DNA from: Candidatus Latescibacterota bacterium
GTDB taxonomy: Bacteria; JAAXHH01; JACQVL01
DNA length: 9,428 nucleotides
Direction of reading: 5' to 3'
Assembly (NCBI GenBank): GCA_016209865.1
Contig: JACQVL010000345.1
Coordinates: 1 to 9,428, forward strand
A program made the position numbers and the translations under genes. The notes beneath the pieces are model-generated. The model saw nothing but the letters and a program-made list of their open reading frames with translations. It did not search any database and was not told where the DNA came from. The stretch's first letter is position 1; every line of letters begins with the position of its first letter. Positions 1-9,237 of the stretch are shown here, piece after piece.

Positions 1-132
1 CAAGCGCGGCGGCTCGACATCAACCAACCGGATGCAGGAGAACCGCCCGGTGCTCAGCCCCGGCCAGCGCCGGCCGAACGCCCGAACAAAGAGATACCGG
101 GGAACGCTTTTGATGTATTGGAGAGCGAGCAT
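1..132 (-). CDS. Probable zinc-type alcohol dehydrogenase, N-terminal 44 codons only
   Basis: An open minus-strand frame starts at ATG 130-132 and runs off the left edge after exactly 44 codons. It reads MLALQYIKSVPRYL, then VRAFGRRWPGL and RLVDVEPPRL. From memory this resembles the N-terminus of a group of zinc-dependent medium-chain dehydrogenases, in which a (K/L)ALQ..KS.PR.L opening and an RLV.(V/I).EP.L strand precede the GroES-like catalytic domain. No zinc ligand or nucleotide-binding motif is inside the window, so function rests on this short match. The start has no Shine-Dalgarno sequence: the bases just upstream are an ACTCGTC repeat ending CTGCTCTTCT. It lies 86 bp downstream of the HAD-IB gene on the same strand and may belong to the same lipid-related unit, where it could oxidise or reduce long-chain alcohols or aldehydes. 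The rival reading is a plus-strand tail at 1-159; I judge the minus frame better because it resembles a known N-terminus. Confidence 0.6.
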   Translation of the reverse strand, partial: MLALQYIKSVPRYLFVRAFGRRWPGLSTGRFSCIRLVDVEPPRL

Positions 133-228
133 AGAAGAGCAGTGACGAGTGACGAGTGACGAGTAAAATCAGGAGTGAGGAACAAGTCTGCGGCGGAGCG
201 CGTTGAGCATTTTACTCGTCACTCTTTC
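133..228. repeat. Inverted pair of ACTCGTC-family repeats filling the HAD/alcohol dehydrogenase gap
   Basis: The left copy (133-168, plus orientation) is GAAGAGC followed by three AGTGACG units and AGTAAAA. The right copy (210-228, opposite orientation) is shorter and overlaps the last codons and stop of the HAD gene. GAGTGACGAGTAAAA at 154-168 is a perfect 15-base inverted match to TTTTACTCGTCACTC at 210-224, with 41 bases between. A transcript of either strand could fold a 15-bp stem. The stem is followed by the other tandem units rather than a T-tract, so it is not a classical intrinsic terminator. It could stabilise the 3' end of the HAD message or act as a boundary between genes. Confidence 0.85.
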
Positions 229-911
229 TCCCAGTTCTCGATTCCCCATCCGTTCTCCTCAGCGACGCGACGGAGTAACCGTTTCGGGTTGATAACGACC
301 GGATGCCCGACACAGCGGAGCATCGGGATGTCTGCGCGGCTGTCCCCGTATGCGAAACTCCGGGCGAGGTCGAGATGGTGCGTGTCGGCGAAGGCACGAA
401 TCACGTGGGCTTTTTCCTCGTCCCCGATGGGGGGGCCAGTTAAATGACCCGTGAGCCGGCCGTCCTGTTCCGTCATCTGGACAGCGAGCAGAGCGTCCGC
501 CTGGAGAAACTCAGCGACCGGCTGCATGATGAAATCGAGCGATCCGGTGACCAGGACGACGCGCTCCCCGCGATCCCGGTGCTGCGCGACGCGGGTGATG
601 GCATCGGGATACAGACGGGGACGGATCACGTCCTCGAAATGCGCCTGACTCCAGACTCGCACCTGACGGGCGTCCATCCCCGCGTAATTCTGGTAGAAAA
701 TTCGGTTGAATGCGCTACGACTGACCCGATCAAGGAAGATGTAGTAGAGAATTTTCGGGATGAATCCGGCCAGCCAGAGGCGACGCCGGAGGGGCGAAAG
801 GGCTCGCGTGGCGAAGTAGGCATAATAGTGGACGATGGTCGCGTCGACGAGCGTCCCGTCCACATCGAAGAAGGCAGCGACCCGGGTGGGGTGATCCGAG
901 TGATTGGACAC
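219..911 (-). CDS. HAD-IB family phosphatase (SerB-like)
   Basis: This 230-residue protein is a complete HAD-superfamily hydrolase of subclass IB. Motif I is FFDVDGT (residues 14-20), with nucleophile D16 and acid/base D18. Motif II is VTGS (121-124), the motif III lysine is K167, and motif IV is GDSRAD (189-194), giving Mg2+ ligands. A hydrophobic and basic stretch at about 43-68 (LWLAGFIPKILYYIFL) lies in the cap and may touch the membrane. The start is GTG at 909-911; a GGAAGG lies upstream at a rather long spacing (about 13 nt). The family dephosphorylates small phosphomonoesters, and in actinobacteria HAD-IB domains are found fused to PlsC acyltransferases. Here the gene follows a PlsC-containing enzyme by 70 bp, so a lipid phosphate such as a lysophosphatidate, or glycerol phosphate, is a more likely substrate than phosphoserine (inference). 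The last codons, GAG TGA, fall inside an ACTCGTC repeat. Confidence 0.92.
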   Translation of the reverse strand: MSNHSDHPTRVAAFFDVDGTLVDATIVHYYAYFATRALSPLRRRLWLAGFIPKILYYIFLDRVSRSAFNRIFYQNYAGMDARQVRVWSQAHFEDVIRPRLYPDAITRVAQHRDRGERVVLVTGSLDFIMQPVAEFLQADALLAVQMTEQDGRLTGHLTGPPIGDEEKAHVIRAFADTHHLDLARSFAYGDSRADIPMLRCVGHPVVINPKRLLRRVAEENGWGIENWEKE

Positions 912-965: not shown

Positions 966-1010
966 CTTTACTCGTCACTCGTCACTTGTCACTCGTCACT
1001 ACTCTTTCCC
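966..1010 (-). repeat. ACTCGTC-family repeat overlapping the 3' end of the four-domain lipid gene
   Basis: Read on the minus strand, GGGAAAGAGT is followed by four 7-base units of the AGTGACG type (one is AGTGACA) and ends AGTAAAG. The block supplies the final codons GTA GTG ACG AGT GAC AAG and the TGA stop at 982-984. Unlike the copies in the other two gaps it has no inverted partner before the next gene. The remaining bases up to 911 contain only the upstream region of the HAD gene. Confidence 0.85.
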
Positions 1011-4000
1011 GAAGCCGCTCGATGGCTAACCTCACCTGCTGGACGATGTCCCGGTAGAGGTCGTAATTCATCCGCGTCCCTTTCTTCGCCCGGTACGGGG
1101 TCATCGAGAGGGGTGGGCCGAAGATGACCTGGATCGCGCCCGGTTTGGGGAATGAACGGCCTTTCGGGAGGGCGTCATACGTCCCACGGATGTAGGCAGG
1201 GACAACCGGCACGTTGAGTTCCAGGGCGAGCAGGCCGAGTCCCACTTTGAACGGCTGTAACTCGCCGCTGACTGAGCGGGTGCCTTCGGGGTAGATGAGG
1301 ATCGGGCGCTTCGGGGCGAGGACCCGGGAGGATGACCGAAGGCCCTCGAAGAAATCCCCATGACGATCGAACGGGATGACGTTCAGGAAGGTGCTGAAGA
1401 ACCAGGCTTTCGTGGGGGTGTTGAAGAAATAGTCCTTCGCGCCCAGGACGTGCAACCGATCGACCCGTCCCCAGAGGGAGATGATGATCGCCCCGGAGTC
1501 GAGATGGCTGCAGTGGTTGGCGGCGACGATGTACGGGACGTCCGCCGGGAGGTGCTCAAGCCCCTGGCAGGTCAGACGGAAATACCACCGGTACAGAAAT
1601 CGGCCCCAGAGCCAGAACCCATGCCGGGTAAGGTCCTGGCCGATCGTCCGGCGGGACAGGTCGGGCGACCCGTTCTTCGATGCGCTCGCCGCGAGCATTC
1701 TCGCCCAGAAGGGCGTCGTGTCGATCGGGCGACTGCTCTCCTCGATCCAGCCCGCGTTGTTCCGCTCAAGATGGTCTTTCACCGCATTCAGCACATCCTG
1801 GATCGTCTGGATCTGGAGCGCGGCAGCATCGGAGATCGACGTCTCGAACCGGGTCTCGAGCGCGGCCAACAACTCCACGCGCATCAATGAATCCATCATC
1901 TCGTCGAGGGGACGGTCGGGCTGGCTGGCGACCTCCGGGACCGGCAGGCCAGTGAGCTGGCTGACCACCCGGTAGACCGCCTGCTCCCACGGCAGGCCGG
2001 CCTGCTCGGCTGTCTGGGACGCTTTCCCCTCCTGGGCGGCCTGGAGTCGCTCAGCTAAGGCGCGCTGAAGGTGTTCCCGCGCCCGCTTCATGTCCCCCTC
2101 GCAGGGCAGCGGCTCCTCCCAGAGATGCACCTGCTGGATGCGCTGGTAGGTCGGCAGTCGCTTGGAGACCGTGTGAACGGCCTCCATCAGCGAGCGCCGG
2201 AGCGCGTCCGGGTCGCGCGGCCCCGGAAAAGCCTCCCAGTCAGGCACGACGACGGCATGGATGTCCTCGCTCAGGGTGTGCGGGGCGCGCACCCCCACGA
2301 CCTTGAGGTGCTTGATGTACGGGATCGACCGGTAAAACTGCTCGACCTCGTCGGGGTAGACGTTCTTCCCCGCGCCGGTGACGATCAGGTCCTTCGACCG
2401 CCCGGTGATGGACAGGTAACCGTCCTCGTCCAGCCGGCCGATGTCCCCGGTGTACAGCCAGCCGTCGCGCAGCACGTCGGCGGTGGCGTGCGGGTTCCGG
2501 TAATACCCGGCCATGACGTTCGGCCCCCGCACGACGACCTCCCCGTTCCCGTCCGCGTCCGGATTGTCGATGCGCAGTTCGATGCCGGGGAGCGGCGGGC
2601 CGACGGAGTTCCGTTTACTGTTCCCCATCGGGTTGACCGTCAAGATGGGCGCGGTCTCGGTCAGCCCATACCCTTCGTAGATCGTCAGCCCTATCCGCTG
2701 GTAGGCGTCGTACAACTCCGCCCCGAGGGCAGCCCCGCCGCTGACGAGCAGCCGGAGGTGTCCCCCAAACGCCGAGGCATCCGGCCTGACGCCGCCCGGT
2801 GTCGCTGTGTCCTCTGCTCCGCCGTTCCCGATCTCCACGTCCCGCTGAATGCGGTCGTACAGCAGCTTGAAGATCCGAGGAACGGCGAGTAAACACGTCG
2901 TCTTCGTCTCCTCCATGAGATCGAGGACGACACGGGACTTGAGCGTCTCGACGTACGTGATCGTCGCCCCGCCGTAGAGGGGCATCAGGAAGCCGCCGGT
3001 GAATTCCAGGGCGTGATTGAGGGGCAGGATGGAGAGGAAGCGGTCGGTCTCATACGCCCGCAGGACGTCCGCTAAGGCGATCAGGTCGGTGATGAAATTC
3101 CGGTGCGAGAGCATCACGCCGCGCGGGTCAACGGCGGTCCCCTTCGTGAAGATGATGGAGGCGAGCGCGTCAGGATGGAGTGGTTCCCAGGCCGGCGGGT
3201 CGTCCCCCAGGAGGGCCGGCGGGTCGTCCGACGTCGGCTCGCCGAACGGCCGGCCGTGGTTGTCGATGTTCCAGATGTGGAGACCCGACTCAGACTCCGC
3301 GTTGGCCAGGAGGGCCTCCTCGGAGAGGTTCACGAAGCAGAGGTCGGAGCACAGGAGAGCCCGCGCGTCGGTGAACCGGGCGATCGCCCAGATCTCCGAC
3401 TCCGGCGTCTGCCGGTCGATCGGGACGACCGTCGCCCCGGCCGCGATGGCGGCGAAGTAGACGATGCCCCAGGCCGGCCCGTTCTCCGCGTACAGGAGGA
3501 CGCGATCGCCGGGACGTAGTCCGTGCTGTCCCCAGAACGCCCCGATCCGGCCCGCCCGGTCGTAGACCTCCTGGTACGTGTACTGCACCCATTCCCCGTT
3601 TCGTCTCACCCGGAGCGCCACCTTGTCCGGGTATTTCGCCGCGCTCTTAGCGAGCAGGTCTCCGAGCGTCTCCAACGGGTTTTCTTCGCGCTCCTGGTCG
3701 AGGCCCGCCCGGTCGGCGGACTCCCCGTCAGCGCTCTCGTCCGGTTCTGGCGCTTCCGGCGCCTCTGTCTTGAGGACGTGCCGCTTCAGACCCGGGATGT
3801 GGATGTCCTGGATGTACTCCTTCCAGCGGATGCGTGTGACGTCGAAGTTGAACAGCCGCCGGTCTTCCGGCTCCATCTCCTCGTACAGTCGCTGAGTCCG
3901 GCTCGTCTCGAACTGATAGTCGAGGGTGGTGTACGGGCTGTAGATCTCGGCGTAGTACAGGAGTCGGTTGACCGTCGCCTTCAGGACGGTGACGCGCTGC

Positions 4001-5364
4001 TTCACACGGGCCATCGTCGCCAGCCCCGAGCACCGTTCCGCCACCCACTGGATCGCGTTCAGCGGGGCGAGGTACTTCAACTGCTGGCGCCGTCGAAACC
4101 GTGCAAACGTCGGAAAATTCCAGCTCCAGTCGTTGACCGGGATCGGCTCTCCTTGCTTATTCAGCCGGGGATGTTCGCGGAAGTAATCGTGGATCAGGTC
4201 GAACAACACCCGGCATGTCAGGGGGTTCTGCGACCCGGTCGCCGCCTGGTAGACCGTCAGGCCGCCGTCCTGCGCCAGCCTCGGCATGACGGCTAAGATG
4301 ACGTTGACGACGATGTCCACCGGGACGATGTCGATGATGACGCTCGGGTTCGACGGGAAATCCGGGAGGCGTCCCCGGCTGAACGCGTCGATCAGCGGGT
4401 CGGCCACCTTGAGGCCGTCGACCCATCCCGGCTCCGGCTCGACTAAGCTGCTCTCGATGATCGATGGCCGGACGATGGCGGTGGGCAGGTCGCCGCGGGT
4501 CTTGACGATCAACTGTTCTCCCATTGCCTTCGTCAGGGTGTAGCTGTCGTGCCAGCCCAACTGCTTCGCTCGCCGCATCCCTTCGTCGACCAACCGTCGC
4601 TTGACCCAGCGTTTGCGGATCGTCTCGACCTGGGCGTCCAGCCATCGCGCGGTCGGCGGCTGTTCGTTCTGCTTCAACGCGGCCCGCCGGAATTCCGCGA
4701 ATTGCTCCGGCGTCCGGGAATCCTCGTGGACACGTTTGGCGAACGCGAGAGCCGACCTGATCTCCCGTTCCAGGTCGTACGGCTTCGCTGGCCGGCCGAT
4801 CTCCTGGGCGACACTCCGGTCGGGTGCCAAAGGCTCTTCCGGGATTCGTCCGGTCCGCTGGCCGCTGACGTAGGCGGTCGAGACATGGACGAGGATGGCG
4901 TTCCGGCAGGCTCTGGCGAACTCGACCACATGCCTTGCCCCCAGCGTATTGAGCTGGAGGGCGTGATCGATCCGCTCGTCGAACGTCACGGACGCGGCGC
5001 TGTTGATGACGACCTGGATTTCCTGCGTCAGGCTGGTGTAGACGTCCGCGCTCATGCCCAGATGGTCGAACGTCAGGTCGCCCGCGACCGCGACCATCTT
5101 CTGCCGGAGCACCTCCTGGAACCGCTCGCCGTACAGGTCACGGAGGGTGGCGAACGCGTTCGACAGAAAGACCTCCCGTTCCAGGCGCTCCTCAGCAGAG
5201 AGAGTTGAGCCGTCCGGCAGGCGTTTCGGCCGGATGAGCAGGTACATCCGCTCGACATCCGGCACGTGCCGGAGGATCTTCTCGACAAGCCCCTTGGCGA
5301 GAAACCCGGTGGCCCCGGTGATGAACAGGGATTTGCCGCGTAGAAAATTGGTGATGGAACTCAT
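982..5364 (-). CDS. Four-domain fatty acyl reductase / acyl-AMP ligase / acyl carrier / PlsC acyltransferase (ElbD-like)
   Basis: This 1460-residue protein carries four domains. (1) Residues 1-530 are a fatty acyl-CoA reductase of the extended SDR type: TGATGFLAK at 16-24 binds NADP(H), STAYV is at 162-166, and the catalytic YTLTK is at 275-279. (2) Residues 565-1100 are an AMP-binding acyl ligase: PLNHALE 781-787, YGLTETAP 899-906, YTGDIG 971-976, GRSKDLIVTGAGKN 988-1001, with the likely catalytic K1093. Its P-loop is abnormal (FTKGTAVDPRGV, 739-750). (3) Residues 1125-1200 are a carrier protein with phosphopantetheine serine S1159 in MDSL. (4) Residues 1248-1450 are a PlsC acyltransferase with NHCSHLD (1283-1289) and YPEGTR (1358-1363). 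A charged linker (about 533-562) separates domains 1 and 2. The likely role is activating and reducing a fatty acyl chain and acylating a glycerolipid; the nearest match I know is myxobacterial ElbD (ether lipids). I start at ATG 5362-5364, because an in-frame TTG at 5400 adds only repeat-derived residues. No clear ribosome site is seen. The C-terminal VVTSDK is repeat-encoded. Confidence 0.9.
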   Translation of the reverse strand: MSSITNFLRGKSLFITGATGFLAKGLVEKILRHVPDVERMYLLIRPKRLPDGSTLSAEERLEREVFLSNAFATLRDLYGERFQEVLRQKMVAVAGDLTFDHLGMSADVYTSLTQEIQVVINSAASVTFDERIDHALQLNTLGARHVVEFARACRNAILVHVSTAYVSGQRTGRIPEEPLAPDRSVAQEIGRPAKPYDLEREIRSALAFAKRVHEDSRTPEQFAEFRRAALKQNEQPPTARWLDAQVETIRKRWVKRRLVDEGMRRAKQLGWHDSYTLTKAMGEQLIVKTRGDLPTAIVRPSIIESSLVEPEPGWVDGLKVADPLIDAFSRGRLPDFPSNPSVIIDIVPVDIVVNVILAVMPRLAQDGGLTVYQAATGSQNPLTCRVLFDLIHDYFREHPRLNKQGEPIPVNDWSWNFPTFARFRRRQQLKYLAPLNAIQWVAERCSGLATMARVKQRVTVLKATVNRLLYYAEIYSPYTTLDYQFETSRTQRLYEEMEPEDRRLFNFDVTRIRWKEYIQDIHIPGLKRHVLKTEAPEAPEPDESADGESADRAGLDQEREENPLETLGDLLAKSAAKYPDKVALRVRRNGEWVQYTYQEVYDRAGRIGAFWGQHGLRPGDRVLLYAENGPAWGIVYFAAIAAGATVVPIDRQTPESEIWAIARFTDARALLCSDLCFVNLSEEALLANAESESGLHIWNIDNHGRPFGEPTSDDPPALLGDDPPAWEPLHPDALASIIFTKGTAVDPRGVMLSHRNFITDLIALADVLRAYETDRFLSILPLNHALEFTGGFLMPLYGGATITYVETLKSRVVLDLMEETKTTCLLAVPRIFKLLYDRIQRDVEIGNGGAEDTATPGGVRPDASAFGGHLRLLVSGGAALGAELYDAYQRIGLTIYEGYGLTETAPILTVNPMGNSKRNSVGPPLPGIELRIDNPDADGNGEVVVRGPNVMAGYYRNPHATADVLRDGWLYTGDIGRLDEDGYLSITGRSKDLIVTGAGKNVYPDEVEQFYRSIPYIKHLKVVGVRAPHTLSEDIHAVVVPDWEAFPGPRDPDALRRSLMEAVHTVSKRLPTYQRIQQVHLWEEPLPCEGDMKRAREHLQRALAERLQAAQEGKASQTAEQAGLPWEQAVYRVVSQLTGLPVPEVASQPDRPLDEMMDSLMRVELLAALETRFETSISDAAALQIQTIQDVLNAVKDHLERNNAGWIEESSRPIDTTPFWARMLAASASKNGSPDLSRRTIGQDLTRHGFWLWGRFLYRWYFRLTCQGLEHLPADVPYIVAANHCSHLDSGAIIISLWGRVDRLHVLGAKDYFFNTPTKAWFFSTFLNVIPFDRHGDFFEGLRSSSRVLAPKRPILIYPEGTRSVSGELQPFKVGLGLLALELNVPVVPAYIRGTYDALPKGRSFPKPGAIQVIFGPPLSMTPYRAKKGTRMNYDLYRDIVQQVRLAIERLRERVVTSDK

Positions 5365-5373
5365 AAGGGTCGG

Positions 5374-5396
5374 TAAAATCAGTGACGAGTGACCAG
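5374..5396 (+). repeat. ACTCGTC-family repeat just upstream of the four-domain gene
   Basis: TAAAATC is followed by AGTGACGAGTGACCAG (5381-5396). The last 16 bases are a perfect inverted match to CTGGTCACTCGTCACT at 5585-5600, across the end of the isomerase gene, so the pair brackets the whole 217-bp gap. The copy ends 10 bp before the ATG of the large gene and takes the place where a ribosome-binding site would be expected. Confidence 0.85.
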
Positions 5397-5513: not shown

Positions 5514-5576
5514 ACAAGAGAAAAGGGCAAATGGTGAAAAGGCGAAGAGAGTAACACTTCTCCCGTTTTCGCTTGT
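5514..5576. repeat. Imperfect inverted repeat downstream of the isomerase gene, possible terminator
   Basis: ACAAGAGAAAAGGG (5514-5527) pairs imperfectly with CCCGTTTTCGCTTGT (5562-5576): one mismatch and one bulge. On the minus-strand transcript this stem would start 5 nt after the isomerase stop codon and end in UUGUUUAUUG, a weak U-rich tail, just before the -35 box of the next promoter. The position suits termination or 3' end stabilisation of the isomerase message, but the loop is long (34 nt) and the U-run broken, so this is tentative. Confidence 0.4.
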
Positions 5577-5610
5577 ACTCGTCACTGGTCACTCGTCACT
5601 GCTCTTCCCA
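5576..5610 (-). repeat. ACTCGTC-family repeat overlapping the 3' end of the isomerase gene
   Basis: On the minus strand TGGGAAGAGC is followed by three AGTGACG-type units (the middle one is AGTGACC) and ends AGTA. It encodes the last isomerase residues, GRAVTSDQ, and the TGA stop at 5582-5584. It matches the copy at the end of the four-domain gene (966-1010) both in the tandem part and in the GGGAARAG lead-in. It forms the 16-base inverted pair with 5381-5396. Confidence 0.88.
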
Positions 5611-6664
5611 TCAGTCGCTTGAACTCATCCACCCACGGAATGGGCGTCGGGTTGACCCGGTTGGCGACCGCCTGGTAGAAGCTCGCATAGCTGCCGAGCA
5701 GGAGCAGGTCGAACGCCTGTTCGAGAGGCGTCTCGCCGCGAGCGAGCACGGCCTGGCAGGCGATTCCTTGCCGCCGGAGCACCTGTGTAGTGATCCCGTA
5801 CCGCTTCCGGTTGCGCGGGTCGTACAGACCTGATTCGATCATCAGGACGAGCAGGCGTTTTCGCACCGCGGCCGGGGCGGTGAGTCCTTCGAGGAGATGA
5901 TGGTTGAGTTCCGGGATCACGAACCACGCCGCGAAGTTTTTTGCGTTCTCGTTCCACTGATTCGCGAAGATGTGGGCGTTCCCGGCCAGGTGCTCGGAGG
6001 CGACGATGATGGGCATACGAAGACGAGCCTGGTGGGCAAGTTCCAGCGCCGGGTTCGGACCAGCCAACTGGCTGTATCCCGCGTTGGCTGCTCTGAGGCA
6101 CCGGATGATACGCCGCATTTCCTGATCGGTCAGGTCGATCAGACCGACCTGACGGAAGACGCCGAGCTGGTAGGTCACGGCGTATCCCAGGCCGATCCGG
6201 GGCTGGCCGCACGGGTTGTGCTCCGTCCCGAACACCACGGCGGGCAGCCGGTGCGCCCGCGCGAACGCCGACAGCGCCCCGCCGGTCGTCAGCGCGATCA
6301 TCGGGATTCCCGCCCGCTGCGCAGATTCCGCGACGGCCAGGATTTCTTCAGTCCCCCCTGAGTAGCTGGAGAGGAGCAGCAACGTCTCACGGTTGACCCA
6401 GGACGGCACGGTATAATCCGACACGATGGTGATCGGGACCGACAGCCGGTCACGAAACACGCTCTGAATCAGGTGCGTCCCGATGGCCGACCCGCCCATC
6501 CCGGCGACGACGACGTGCCGGACACGCCGGTAGGATGCAGGAAACGGGGTCGTCGAGATGGCCGACCACGCGGCTTCGACCTGATCCGGCAGGTGTCCGA
6601 TCGAGTCGAACATCCGCTGCGGGTCGAGACGGGTCAGGAGGGATGGACTGATGCGAGAGGGCAT
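5582..6664 (-). CDS. Bifunctional phosphoglucose/phosphomannose isomerase (SIS family)
   Basis: This 360-residue cytosolic enzyme interconverts fructose-6-phosphate with glucose-6-phosphate and mannose-6-phosphate. The first SIS domain carries GMGGSAIG (55-62), preceded by the strand VVVA, and SSYSGGTEE (99-107), which binds the sugar phosphate. The second domain has NENAK (238-242) and ELNHH (252-256). E239 and H255 lie 16 residues apart, like the catalytic Glu and His of the archaeal PGI/PMI enzymes. Length is normal for the family. The ATG at 6662-6664 has a good ribosome site, GAAGGA, 7 nt upstream. The gene starts 113 bp after the flavoprotein gene, across a CACAAAG inverted repeat. Products feed glycolysis and GDP-mannose synthesis, matching the sugar-related neighbour at 8166. 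The normal protein appears to end near KRLMGR (349-354); the final AVTSDQ comes from an ACTCGTC repeat. Confidence 0.95.
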   Translation of the reverse strand: MPSRISPSLLTRLDPQRMFDSIGHLPDQVEAAWSAISTTPFPASYRRVRHVVVAGMGGSAIGTHLIQSVFRDRLSVPITIVSDYTVPSWVNRETLLLLSSYSGGTEEILAVAESAQRAGIPMIALTTGGALSAFARAHRLPAVVFGTEHNPCGQPRIGLGYAVTYQLGVFRQVGLIDLTDQEMRRIIRCLRAANAGYSQLAGPNPALELAHQARLRMPIIVASEHLAGNAHIFANQWNENAKNFAAWFVIPELNHHLLEGLTAPAAVRKRLLVLMIESGLYDPRNRKRYGITTQVLRRQGIACQAVLARGETPLEQAFDLLLLGSYASFYQAVANRVNPTPIPWVDEFKRLMGRAVTSDQ

Positions 6665-6682
6665 GAAAAATTCCTTCGGGGT

Positions 6683-6760
6683 TCACCACAAAGACACAAA
6701 GGGCACAAAGTAGAGAACAGGAATTTGGACCCCTTTGTGTTCTTTGTGCCTTTGTGGTGA
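6683..6760. repeat. CACAAAG/CTTTGTG inverted repeat in the flavoprotein-isomerase gap
   Basis: The arms are 6683-6710 (TCACCACAAAGACACAAAGG...) and 6733-6760 (...TTTGTGCCTTTGTGGTGA), 28 bases with three mismatches, around a 22-base loop. Each arm is itself a loose tandem of CACAAAG. On the minus-strand transcript one mismatch is a G-U pair, so the hairpin should be stable. It fills most of the gap, ending 18 nt before the isomerase ATG, just upstream of its ribosome site. I recall TTTGTGCCTTTGTGGTGA as a dispersed intergenic repeat in many environmental bacterial genomes. Confidence 0.88.
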
Positions 6761-6777
6761 GAAGCGTTGATCGTCGA

Positions 6778-8109
6778 TCACCGAAGACACCCCTCTTTCC
6801 TCAAAATATCCCCCGCGATCGCGTACGTCGTCCCGTGCATGGCGATGACGACCAGGCCCATCCCCTCCGCTAAATAGCCGCCCGGGTATAGGTTGGGGAT
6901 ATCAATCGATTCGTAGTTGTGCGGATGGACGCGCATCTGGTGGCACTGGAACCGGTAGTTGTCGTACTTCTCGACGAGCTGGAGGGGCGGGAACCCCTGA
7001 AAGGGTGAATAATCCACGATCCCGCCGATTTCGATCACGACATGATCGACGTCGAGGGTTCGCGCATGGCCGTTGTGCGAGACGAGCACACGCCCGCCCG
7101 TCGTCCCGCCGTCGATCTGGCGGACGTGACTGCCGTACAACGTCTCGAACCGCCGGTCACGGCTTTCGATGATGTCCGCCATCCGGGCGTAGTAGGGCAG
7201 GCCGTCCCGGCTGTCGCTGATGAGCCGCCAGTGGTGCTCCTCGTTCTGGCGCATGACGTAGGACACCTGCTTGCCCGCGTCGTACAGCTCAGTCGCCGCC
7301 CAGTCGGACGACCGGCCCCCGCCGATGACCGCGACCCGCTCGCCGGGGAAATCCTCCGGCCTGTCGTACTGGTTCGTCACGAACGGCAGGTCTTCGCCCG
7401 GGACGTTCAGTCGCCGGAGGATGCACCGCTGCCCGACGGCGTACAGGAGAGACCGGCTGGTGTAGCGCCGTTCTTCTCCGGTCTGCATCTGCCGGCTCGT
7501 GACCAGGAACCCTTTCGCATCAGGCTCGATCCGGATGACCTCCTCGTCCGTCCGCATCCGGGTCGTCTGGCCGAACCGTTCGGGGATGCGGTGGTAGTAG
7601 TCGATCAGGTCGCGTTTGCAGATGAGCGCGTTCATGTCGAACGGCCGGTCCGTCTCTGCGGCATACTGCGCGAGCGGGTAGAACGCTAATTCCATCCAGT
7701 GGCCGGGGGACAGGGTCAGGAGGTTCGCCGGGACGTTGTTCCAGAGACCGCCAGCCGGCTCGCGCGAGAGCAACAGATAGTCGAGAGGTTCGGCTGGCCG
7801 GAAATCGAGGCCGATCTGGTCGAGTCCCTGAAACCGCTGGGACGGATGGTGGAGCAGCCGGAAGAGATCGACCGGCGAGACGCCCGTCCGGACGAGGGCG
7901 GGGAAGTCGAGCGCCAGGAGCGAGCCCGGATGTCTCCGCAGGTATGCCGCTAATTGAGGGTGGCGTGACTCGAAGAGCGCGCTTTCCCGGTAGAACGGAT
8001 GCCAGCCGCCCAACACGACGGCGAGCGCCAGTCCGGCCGGCCCGCCGCCGACGATGAGGACGGTATGGTGTTCGGGTTTGGCGTAGGGGCGAAGCATTCG
8101 CTGCTCCAT
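6778..8109 (-). CDS. FAD/NAD(P)-dependent oxidoreductase, OSGIN-like
   Basis: This 443-residue flavoprotein has two dinucleotide-binding folds. The FAD site is VLIVGGGPAGLALA (17-30). A second fold at VAVIGGGRSSDWAATEL (259-275) probably binds NADPH, with serine in place of the last glycine. The stretch LLTLSPGHWMEL (130-141) resembles the LTLS.G.WMELP segment that I associate with OSGIN1/OKL38 flavoproteins, relatives of N-hydroxylating and Baeyer-Villiger monooxygenases. The C-terminus, GGYLAEGMGLVVIAMHGTTYAIAGDILR, looks like the usual final FAD contact. No signal peptide or membrane segment is seen, so it should be cytosolic. The substrate cannot be read from sequence. I prefer ATG 8107-8109, with AGGA 7 nt upstream; an internal ATG at 8095-8097 is possible. 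Residues 4-9 (RMLRPY) are encoded by one arm of an inverted repeat. It follows the epimerase gene by 56 bp and may be cotranscribed with it. Confidence 0.85.
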   Translation of the reverse strand: MEQRMLRPYAKPEHHTVLIVGGGPAGLALAVVLGGWHPFYRESALFESRHPQLAAYLRRHPGSLLALDFPALVRTGVSPVDLFRLLHHPSQRFQGLDQIGLDFRPAEPLDYLLLSREPAGGLWNNVPANLLTLSPGHWMELAFYPLAQYAAETDRPFDMNALICKRDLIDYYHRIPERFGQTTRMRTDEEVIRIEPDAKGFLVTSRQMQTGEERRYTSRSLLYAVGQRCILRRLNVPGEDLPFVTNQYDRPEDFPGERVAVIGGGRSSDWAATELYDAGKQVSYVMRQNEEHHWRLISDSRDGLPYYARMADIIESRDRRFETLYGSHVRQIDGGTTGGRVLVSHNGHARTLDVDHVVIEIGGIVDYSPFQGFPPLQLVEKYDNYRFQCHQMRVHPHNYESIDIPNLYPGGYLAEGMGLVVIAMHGTTYAIAGDILRKEGCLR

Positions 8110-8155
8110 TCAAGGTTCCTGGTCATTAGTTGTCCGCTGAATGCTTCGCCCCTAC
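8083..8155. repeat. GTAGGGGCGAAGCATTC inverted repeat enclosing the flavoprotein start
   Basis: GTAGGGGCGAAGCATTC (8083-8099) and its exact complement (8139-8155) form a 17-bp perfect stem with a 39-nt loop. On the minus-strand transcript the loop holds the ribosome site and the ATG (8107-8109) of the flavoprotein gene, and the 3' arm lies inside its coding region. I recall TAGGGGCGAAGCATTC as a dispersed repeat in several environmental lineages. Confidence 0.88.
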
Positions 8156-8165
8156 CCGATCGCCC

Positions 8166-9134
8166 TTACACCGCACCGATGCGACGCAGGTACGCCACAC
8201 TCTCCTCGAACTCCCGCGTCTCGTACGCGGCCAGGGCTTCCGGTGATTCTTTCCGTTCCCACGGCGTCCGCCAGTCTTCGGCCGCTGGACGGGCCTTCTG
8301 CCAGTACAGCCGCAAGTGCGGGAGCATGTCGGTGATCGGCCGCACCGGGAATTCAGCCCAGTAATCGTCCGCTAAGAGCCGGACGTGGCGGGCTTCCAGC
8401 GCGCCCAGCTCGATCGTCTTGGTGAGGGACGGATGGTGCTGATCGAAGAGAGCCAACAGCGCGGGAAAATCCACGGCACCCCGGCCGAGCGCGCACCGGG
8501 CCATCCGGTAGCCCTCTGGAGTCGGATGGAGGGTATAATCCTTCAGATGCACGTTCTTGATGAACGGCATCAGCCGGGTGACATACTCGACCGGTTCCTC
8601 GCATACCGCCAGGACGTTGCCGGTGTCCAGATTGATTCCGACCTGATCGCTGTTCAACTCGTCGCACAGCCAGAGCAGGTCGTGAGAGGTGGCGTCCGAG
8701 TGGTTCTCGACGGCGATCGTGATCCCGTGCTCCTTCGCGATGGGCAGGGCGTCTCGAAGGTATCCGAGGCAGGTCCGAAGATGCTCCGGCCATCGTCCAG
8801 CCATCGGCCGGCGGTCGCCGCCTAAAATCCCGCTCAGGATGACGCGCAGGGTCGGCGTACCCAGCCCGTGCGCCACCGGGATGAGCCGGCGGAGCATGTC
8901 GGGCTTGACCGGCCCGCCGTCCGCCACGATGAAGAGGGAGCGCTCGGCCGCGGACTGCCGCGCGCGCTGTAACGTCTCCTCGCGCAAGTCCGGCAGGCAA
9001 TGCTCCGGGGGAAACTCCACCCCGGCCAGGCCGTGGCGCGCCGCCAGGTCGATCAACGCGAACGCGTCGTACCCGGCCGTCCCCATGAACCCGCCGAGAT
9101 GACTGAACGTATACGCACACAGACCGGTTGGCAT
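8166..9134 (-). CDS. Sugar phosphate isomerase/epimerase-type TIM barrel
   Basis: This 322-residue protein belongs to the AP-endonuclease-2-like (xylose isomerase-like) TIM barrels. The likely divalent-metal ligands sit at strand ends: E143 in AVENHSD (141-147), D170 in NLDTGN (168-173), H196 in NVHLKD (194-199) and E242 in TIELGA (240-245). The N-terminal strand GLCAYTFSH and the element LAGVEFPPEH (36-45) are typical. Members act as epimerases, isomerases or dehydratases on sugars, inositols or keto acids; the exact substrate cannot be assigned. The start is ATG 9132-9134, with GAGGAG 6 nt upstream; an ATG at 9192-9194 would add 20 residues translated from an intergenic repeat and lacks a ribosome site. 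It lies between a dehydrogenase and a flavoprotein on the same strand, which suggests a small catabolic set for a sugar or polyol (inference). It ends with TAA at 8166-8168. Confidence 0.87.
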   Translation of the reverse strand: MPTGLCAYTFSHLGGFMGTAGYDAFALIDLAARHGLAGVEFPPEHCLPDLREETLQRARQSAAERSLFIVADGGPVKPDMLRRLIPVAHGLGTPTLRVILSGILGGDRRPMAGRWPEHLRTCLGYLRDALPIAKEHGITIAVENHSDATSHDLLWLCDELNSDQVGINLDTGNVLAVCEEPVEYVTRLMPFIKNVHLKDYTLHPTPEGYRMARCALGRGAVDFPALLALFDQHHPSLTKTIELGALEARHVRLLADDYWAEFPVRPITDMLPHLRLYWQKARPAAEDWRTPWERKESPEALAAYETREFEESVAYLRRIGAV

Positions 9135-9140
9135 GGTGGA

Positions 9141-9146
9141 CTCCTC
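9141..9146 (-). promoter_or_regulatory. Ribosome-binding site fixing the epimerase start
   Basis: GAGGAG on the minus strand lies 6 nt before ATG 9132-9134. This near-ideal site decides against the upstream in-frame ATG at 9194. Confidence 0.8.
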
Positions 9147-9158
9147 GAAGTGAAGAAT

Positions 9159-9237
9159 GTATGGGAGTATGGGGGTATGGGCGTAGAGGAACATTCGTCA
9201 TTCTTCTTTTTTCTCCCATACTCCCACACTCCCATAC
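9159..9237. repeat. CCCATACT 8-bp-period inverted repeat in the dehydrogenase-epimerase gap
   Basis: GTATGGGAGTATGGGGGTATGGG (split here: GTATGGGAGTATG then GGGGTATGGG, 9159-9181) pairs with the 23 bases at 9215-9237 with two mismatches, around a 33-nt loop. Each arm is three units of an 8-base repeat (TATGGGAG type). The loop carries a run of adenines on the minus strand (GAGAAAAAAGAAG). The pair spans most of the 112-bp gap between the SDR stop and the epimerase ribosome site. Confidence 0.87.

Follow-up and report, generated by a model that had tools for sequence, protein, structure and literature searches.

What does a bacterium outside the myxobacteria make with a single protein chain that joins a reductase, an acyl ligase, a carrier and a PlsC acyltransferase, and how would an ether bond to glycerol be formed in its genome? 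The window analysed here, 9428 bases long, is the whole of contig C313 in the 83% complete, 3.75 Mb draft genome of a Latescibacterota-related bacterium. The reading that we favour, and consider reasonably probable, is that it carries an ElbD-type enzyme in an elb-like operon (ElbD, HAD phosphatase, Zn-dependent dehydrogenase), whose fatty acyl reductase (FAR) would provide a fatty alcohol and which would place acyl groups for alkyl-ether glycerolipids. Its own ligase would have lost or reduced ATP-dependent activation, and the ether bond would arise independently of AGPS, with a LarA-type enzyme and the Zn-dehydrogenase as candidates.

Domain order, kinship and neighbours of the ElbD-type protein

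A single open frame on the minus strand runs from the ATG at 5364 to the stop at 982 and encodes 1460 amino acids. Pfam places on it, in this order and each above its cut-off, NAD_binding_4 (4297-5322, E-value 1.5e-64), Sterile/FAR_C (3769-4017, 1.1e-16), AMP-binding (core 2500-3651, 1.3e-76), PP-binding (the carrier, 1783-1980, 1.5e-8) and Acyltransferase (PlsC, 1189-1578, 5.4e-21), all on the minus strand. The original prediction had put four domains, reductase, AMP-binding, carrier and PlsC, in one chain; its coordinates were exact, and the domain search recovered all four with Sterile in addition. The catalytic motifs of the reductase (the Rossmann motif TGATGFLA at 5296-5319 and YTLTK within 4525-4545), of the carrier (the DSL serine, within 1879-1893) and of PlsC (NHCSHLD, an HX4D motif, at 1498-1518 and EGTRS at 1273-1287) are all intact, those of the carrier and PlsC as had been foreseen. 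The reductase had been called SDR-type; a reductase it is, but not a generic SDR, since the C-terminal Sterile domain, paired with NAD_binding_4, marks it on domain evidence as a FAR of the eukaryotic/alcohol-forming family. That an assembly or frame error fused separate genes has a negligible probability: the source is indeed one 9.4 kb draft contig, but the frame is intact, and relatives refute it, dozens of MAGs that were obtained independently and belong to several phyla having the identical domain order. An Rfam scan gave no match. Elsewhere, FAR and the AMP-carrier-PlsC part of ElbD are encoded by separate genes in several Poribacteria (L051, L059, L064, L066, L069, L072 and L079), and at L067:9995-14327 a break within the AMP domain divides the ElbD frame into two that overlap; in L115, a close relative, it is intact.

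The order FAR, ACS, carrier and AGPAT in one chain, by which ElbD is recognized, is that of the window protein, which is, judged from its sequence, an ElbD homologue. In Myxococcus xanthus, ElbD has FAR1-like, ACS, carrier and AGPAT-like parts, its operon also holds a HAD protein (ElbB), ElbC of unknown function and two epimerase-like proteins, and loss of elbD strongly lowers ether lipids (PMC9131029). The likeness to M. xanthus ElbD and elbA-E (Lorenzen et al. 2014), to which the original prediction had pointed for ElbD, is borne out by the shared domain order and by the HAD gene in the operon. We infer from its elbA-B-C-D-E gene order (epimerase, HAD, LarA-type, ElbD, epimerase) and from its CarF that G043, a 9 Mb genome, can be taken as a myxobacterial stand-in. 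Against its ElbD, the window protein is 34% identical in FAR, 40% in AMP and 39% in PlsC, the carrier alone giving no BLAST match, and the two HADs are 40% identical. The window nevertheless differs from M. xanthus elb in its degraded ATP loop, in a Zn-dehydrogenase that follows HAD, in that CarF was not found in its genome and in that the LarA-type gene, which occupies the ElbC position in the myxobacterium-like genome, lies on another contig; identity to the myxobacterial-type ElbD is also just 34-40% per large domain.

The predicted occurrence outside the myxobacteria is correct, yet already in print: four-domain ElbD homologues have been reported from sponge Acidobacteriota and Poribacteria (PMC9426513), and ElbD matches from Latescibacterota MAGs (PMC11868695). 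With the domain order published for M. xanthus ElbD and sponge symbionts, the window protein is not new in kind. The sponge clusters have the four domains in common with the window, which counts sponge-type MAGs among its relatives, and are flanked by hydrolases/dehydratases (PMC9426513), whereas the window's order is nearest to Latescibacterota MAGs and has sister genera with a FAR-AMP-HAD fusion. Carboxylic acid reductases likewise combine a ligase, a carrier and a reductase within a single chain, but in that sequence and without an acyltransferase; the window protein departs from them, as originally noted, in its Pfam order, in a FAR with Sterile as its reductase and in the added PlsC, and the CAR model NF041592 is not among its best 25 family models. 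Its nearest relatives are found in Candidatus Latescibacterota MAGs, the reductases of same-order genomes being 58-62% identical to it; next in line are FAR genes of Latescibacterota and Gemmatimonadota, and further out ElbD-type genes of Poribacteria, Acidobacteriota, Gemmatimonadota, Planctomycetota and Verrucomicrobiota. The FAR tree groups the window with four genes from its own order (SH-aLRT 99), close to the FARs of three AGPS operons (L045, L047 and L094).

Downstream of the elbD-like gene lies that of a HAD-IB phosphatase (219-911, minus strand; TIGR01490), which is ElbB-like. Because G001, from a sister family, has the PlsC part, HAD and a Zn-dependent dehydrogenase in a row, we inspected the first bases of the window, which proved to hold the initial 44 codons of such a dehydrogenase (1-132, minus strand), cut by the contig end and 72-76% identical to the dehydrogenases adjoining HAD in G001 and G011. 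By a script count, HAD lies no more than 500 nt downstream of 39 of 52 AMP-carrier-PlsC genes, a count that misses L081 and L101, where HAD is in a frame overlapping the gene end. An ElbE-type epimerase/dehydratase was not found among the scanned genes of the window, whose contig ends just after the dehydrogenase start. Upstream on the same strand (5582-9194) are genes for a phosphoglucose/phosphomannose isomerase-like protein, an FAD-dependent oxidoreductase and a xylose-isomerase-like TIM barrel; the elbD-like gene of L034, too, is adjoined by relatives of the isomerase-like gene and of the TIM-barrel gene. A heptamer-period repeat, (T)CGTCACTCGTCACT, marks gene boundaries at 134-168, 965-1006, 5372-5396 and 5573-5607, with eight matches in the window against none in shuffles; it is also present on other contigs of the genome, and one copy overlaps the last codons of elbD. 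Intergenic inverted repeats occupy 6683-6760 and 9159-9237 (TCACCACAAAGACACAAAGGGCACAAAG; GTATGGGAGTATGGGGGTATGGG).

The ATP loop of the ligase domain

The A3 loop of the ligase domain reads TKGTAVDPRG (3118-3147, minus strand) in place of the consensus TSGTTGxPKG; of the loop's seven conserved positions, four are altered, one glycine among them. All six of the other AMP-binding proteins checked in the same genome keep TSG[TS]T, and their departures elsewhere in the loop are of single residues (TSGTTSKPKG, TSGTTGPPKM and TSGTTGKKKG). A superfamily-wide survey gives 88-97% conservation for these P-loop positions, with one exception, and reports severe loss of activity on mutation of the loop's glycines or proline, the affected positions being described as critical for adenylation (PMC6122825). 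Since the window's loop departs at conserved, mutation-sensitive positions, its ligase domain has likely lost ATP-dependent activation, and self-activation of the acyl group by the chain finds no support. Nor is the window alone: the consensus loop is missing from 65 of 66 aligned ElbD-type sequences, the sole match being G043, and for this reason a non-canonical loop does not exclude ElbD membership. Poribacteria mostly have TMGTTVDAKG and Acidobacteriota and Gemmatimonadota TTGTAVDPKG, and the loops of Planctomycetota are closest to canonical (for example, TSGTTVSPKG). As a warning, most ElbD 'ligases' may not be ligases.

Would the enzyme still work as M. xanthus ElbD, its altered loop binding ATP and the chain activating a free fatty acid, loading its carrier, reducing part of the product and transferring the rest? 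The M. xanthus ElbD ligase and carrier are active in vitro (PMC9131029), and the window protein retains the carrier serine, motifs A5, A7, A8 and A9 and, in LPCEGDMKRA (2080-2109, minus strand), a Lys at A10 spacing; in relatives, moreover, the AMP domain is under purifying selection. We regard this as unlikely, though far from negligible, given that the changed loop positions include a Gly whose mutation is severely inhibitory (PMC6122825), that most ElbDs outside the myxobacteria have also lost the A10 Lys and that sister genomes have deleted the ligase C-domain altogether.

FAR and HAD in dismantled relatives

About ten genomes from a single sister genus encode a protein reduced to FAR, AMP core and HAD (1198-1262 amino acids), with HAD joined in frame and the ligase C-domain, carrier and PlsC missing; in G011, FAR stands alone and is followed by separate HAD and Zn-dehydrogenase genes. 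Median pN/pS in the fusions is 0.15 for the AMP core, 0.13 for FAR and 0.21 for HAD. The value for the AMP core does not support pseudogene drift of this domain in the sister genera, and with purifying selection persisting, the core probably serves a purpose other than complete ligase chemistry. Actinomycetota (Acidimicrobiia and others) have a FAR-HAD fusion without any AMP domain. That two distant lineages fused the same two enzymes argues that FAR and HAD act together, and the two look like the core that stays when other parts go. Around these Actinomycetota fusions (L102-L121, mostly Acidimicrobiia), about 20 genomes share an operon of FAR-HAD fusion, Zn-dehydrogenase, LarAH14-type enzyme and PlsC, as far as the length of the contig allows it to be seen.

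The ether bond with and without AGPS

AGPS was not found in the window's 83% complete genome with a query verified against mammalian AGPS (4bby), nor was CarF/PF10520, which the same search did detect in G043 as a positive control; at this completeness, gene absences are weak. Two tandem frames of 494 and 463 amino acids do match PF02913, but their size and arrangement lead us to read them as glycolate-oxidase-like, and the AGPS query matches nothing there. As CarF was not found, the alkenyl products included in the original prediction are unlikely.

Several loci of Acidobacteriota, Gemmatimonadota and Acidimicrobiia have, after the dehydrogenase, a Lar_N protein of 530-550 amino acids. Members of the same family occupy the ElbC position in G043 and lie on contig C259 of the window's genome; both pass the NCBIfam model NF052592 (LarAH14/15/16), the latter with 817 bits against a cutoff of 740. 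Among solved structures, the best matches are 9q2u and 9q3j, LarA-like enzymes of the single-histidine kind (PMC12611868). The family keeps the NPN Lys (K193), the Ni His residues (H208/H209) and one catalytic His (H118; numbering in A2), and the second catalytic His and the phosphate-binding Arg/Lys are not conserved. A LarAH14 that was tested showed no activity, and the suggestion has been made that such enzymes may perform another hydride reaction (Desguin et al., PMC7583248). Our literature search, which covered papers outside their supplementary tables, gave none linking LarAH14/15/16 to ether lipids.

Within a panel of 26 FAR/ElbD genomes, 18 have the LarA type and eight lack it. AGPS (G013, G059-G062, G068, G076 and G075) is found in seven of the eight LarA-lacking genomes and in one of the 18 LarA-bearing ones (Fisher p about 1e-4, not corrected for kinship). 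The independent AGPS/LarA changes on the FAR tree number four to five, too few for phylogenetic significance, and strict exclusivity is refuted by Acidithrix (G075), which has both, and an AGPS homologue is reported alongside elbC for M. xanthus too (PMC9131029). The clearest case of alternation lies within the window's own order, where G013 has the four-domain enzyme and AGPS but neither the LarA type nor HAD and dehydrogenase neighbours. This alternation suggests that the LarA-type enzyme might make the ether bond where AGPS is missing.

The classical eukaryote-like route of FAR, acyltransferase and AGPS might instead operate here, with AGPS simply missing from an incomplete assembly. The eukaryotic FAR1-GNPAT-AGPS pathway and bacterial FAR-acyltransferase-AGPS operons resemble the window in a FAR with C-terminal Sterile and a glycerolipid acyltransferase, the bacterial operons contain the FARs closest to this order, and the sister genome G013 pairs its full four-domain enzyme with AGPS. 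We judge this route improbable, because relatives in the order, 93-99% complete, lack AGPS but have HAD, the dehydrogenase and the LarA type, and the window has the two genes missing at the G013 locus; in place of AGPS, its genome offers HAD, Zn-dehydrogenase and a LarA-type enzyme. The bacterial operons themselves (L047:9974-15409, L045 and L094; Latescibacterota and Gemmatimonadota) consist of FAR, a 644-amino-acid protein and AGPS. The middle protein has no Pfam match; its top Foldseek matches, PlsC and plant GPAT, are all weak, from a model with pLDDT 57, and hint that it may be acyltransferase-like.

For the AGPS-independent pathway that we favour, alkyl ether production by the window's operon is plausible on the gene content. 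With its own ligase domain lost or reduced in ATP-dependent activation, FAR would take acyl-CoA or acyl-ACP made elsewhere and convert it to a fatty alcohol (or aldehyde), and the AMP-binding domain would now hold or load the acyl group. Carrier and PlsC would acylate glycerol phosphate or its alkyl ether, and HAD would strip the phosphate from an intermediate, either a lyso- or an alkyl-phosphatidate. Candidate catalysts of the ether bond are the ElbC-like nickel-pincer enzyme of the LarAH14/15/16 type and the Zn-dehydrogenase; the former might act through transient oxidation of a glycerol hydroxyl, allowing acyl-alkyl exchange, or through hydride transfer to the hemiacetal of a fatty aldehyde and glycerol. 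It counts against this explanation that the LarA-type and elbD-like genes are on different contigs in the window's genome, and that in Pontiella strains with ElbD homologues no ether lipids were seen (PMC11868695).

FAR-family enzymes yield alcohols or aldehydes, and the operon might therefore make fatty alcohols, wax-like esters or another acylated alcohol, and no ether lipid at all. HAD and PlsC are general glycerolipid enzymes, and the literature search gave no lipidomics for these bacteria. We assign this outcome a small though real probability, since the operon logic is common to elb, where elbD loss strongly reduces the ether lipids of M. xanthus (PMC9131029), and since close FAR relatives adjoin AGPS, which is dedicated to ether-lipid synthesis.

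A review describes as unknown the steps by which a fatty acid becomes an alkyl ether lipid (PMC9131029). For the formation of glycerol ether bonds in bacteria without AGPS, our comparison names a concrete candidate, the LarA-type nickel-pincer enzyme, and it shows that FAR and HAD persist where the other parts are lost. That ElbD-type loci in general get their ether bond from this enzyme (LarAH14/15/16, ElbC) with HAD and the dehydrogenase, replacing the FAD-dependent AGPS, is a tentative proposal, possible if somewhat on the unlikely side. If true, an orphan group of LarA proteins would gain a function, and the step missing from the myxobacterial pathway could be tested directly.
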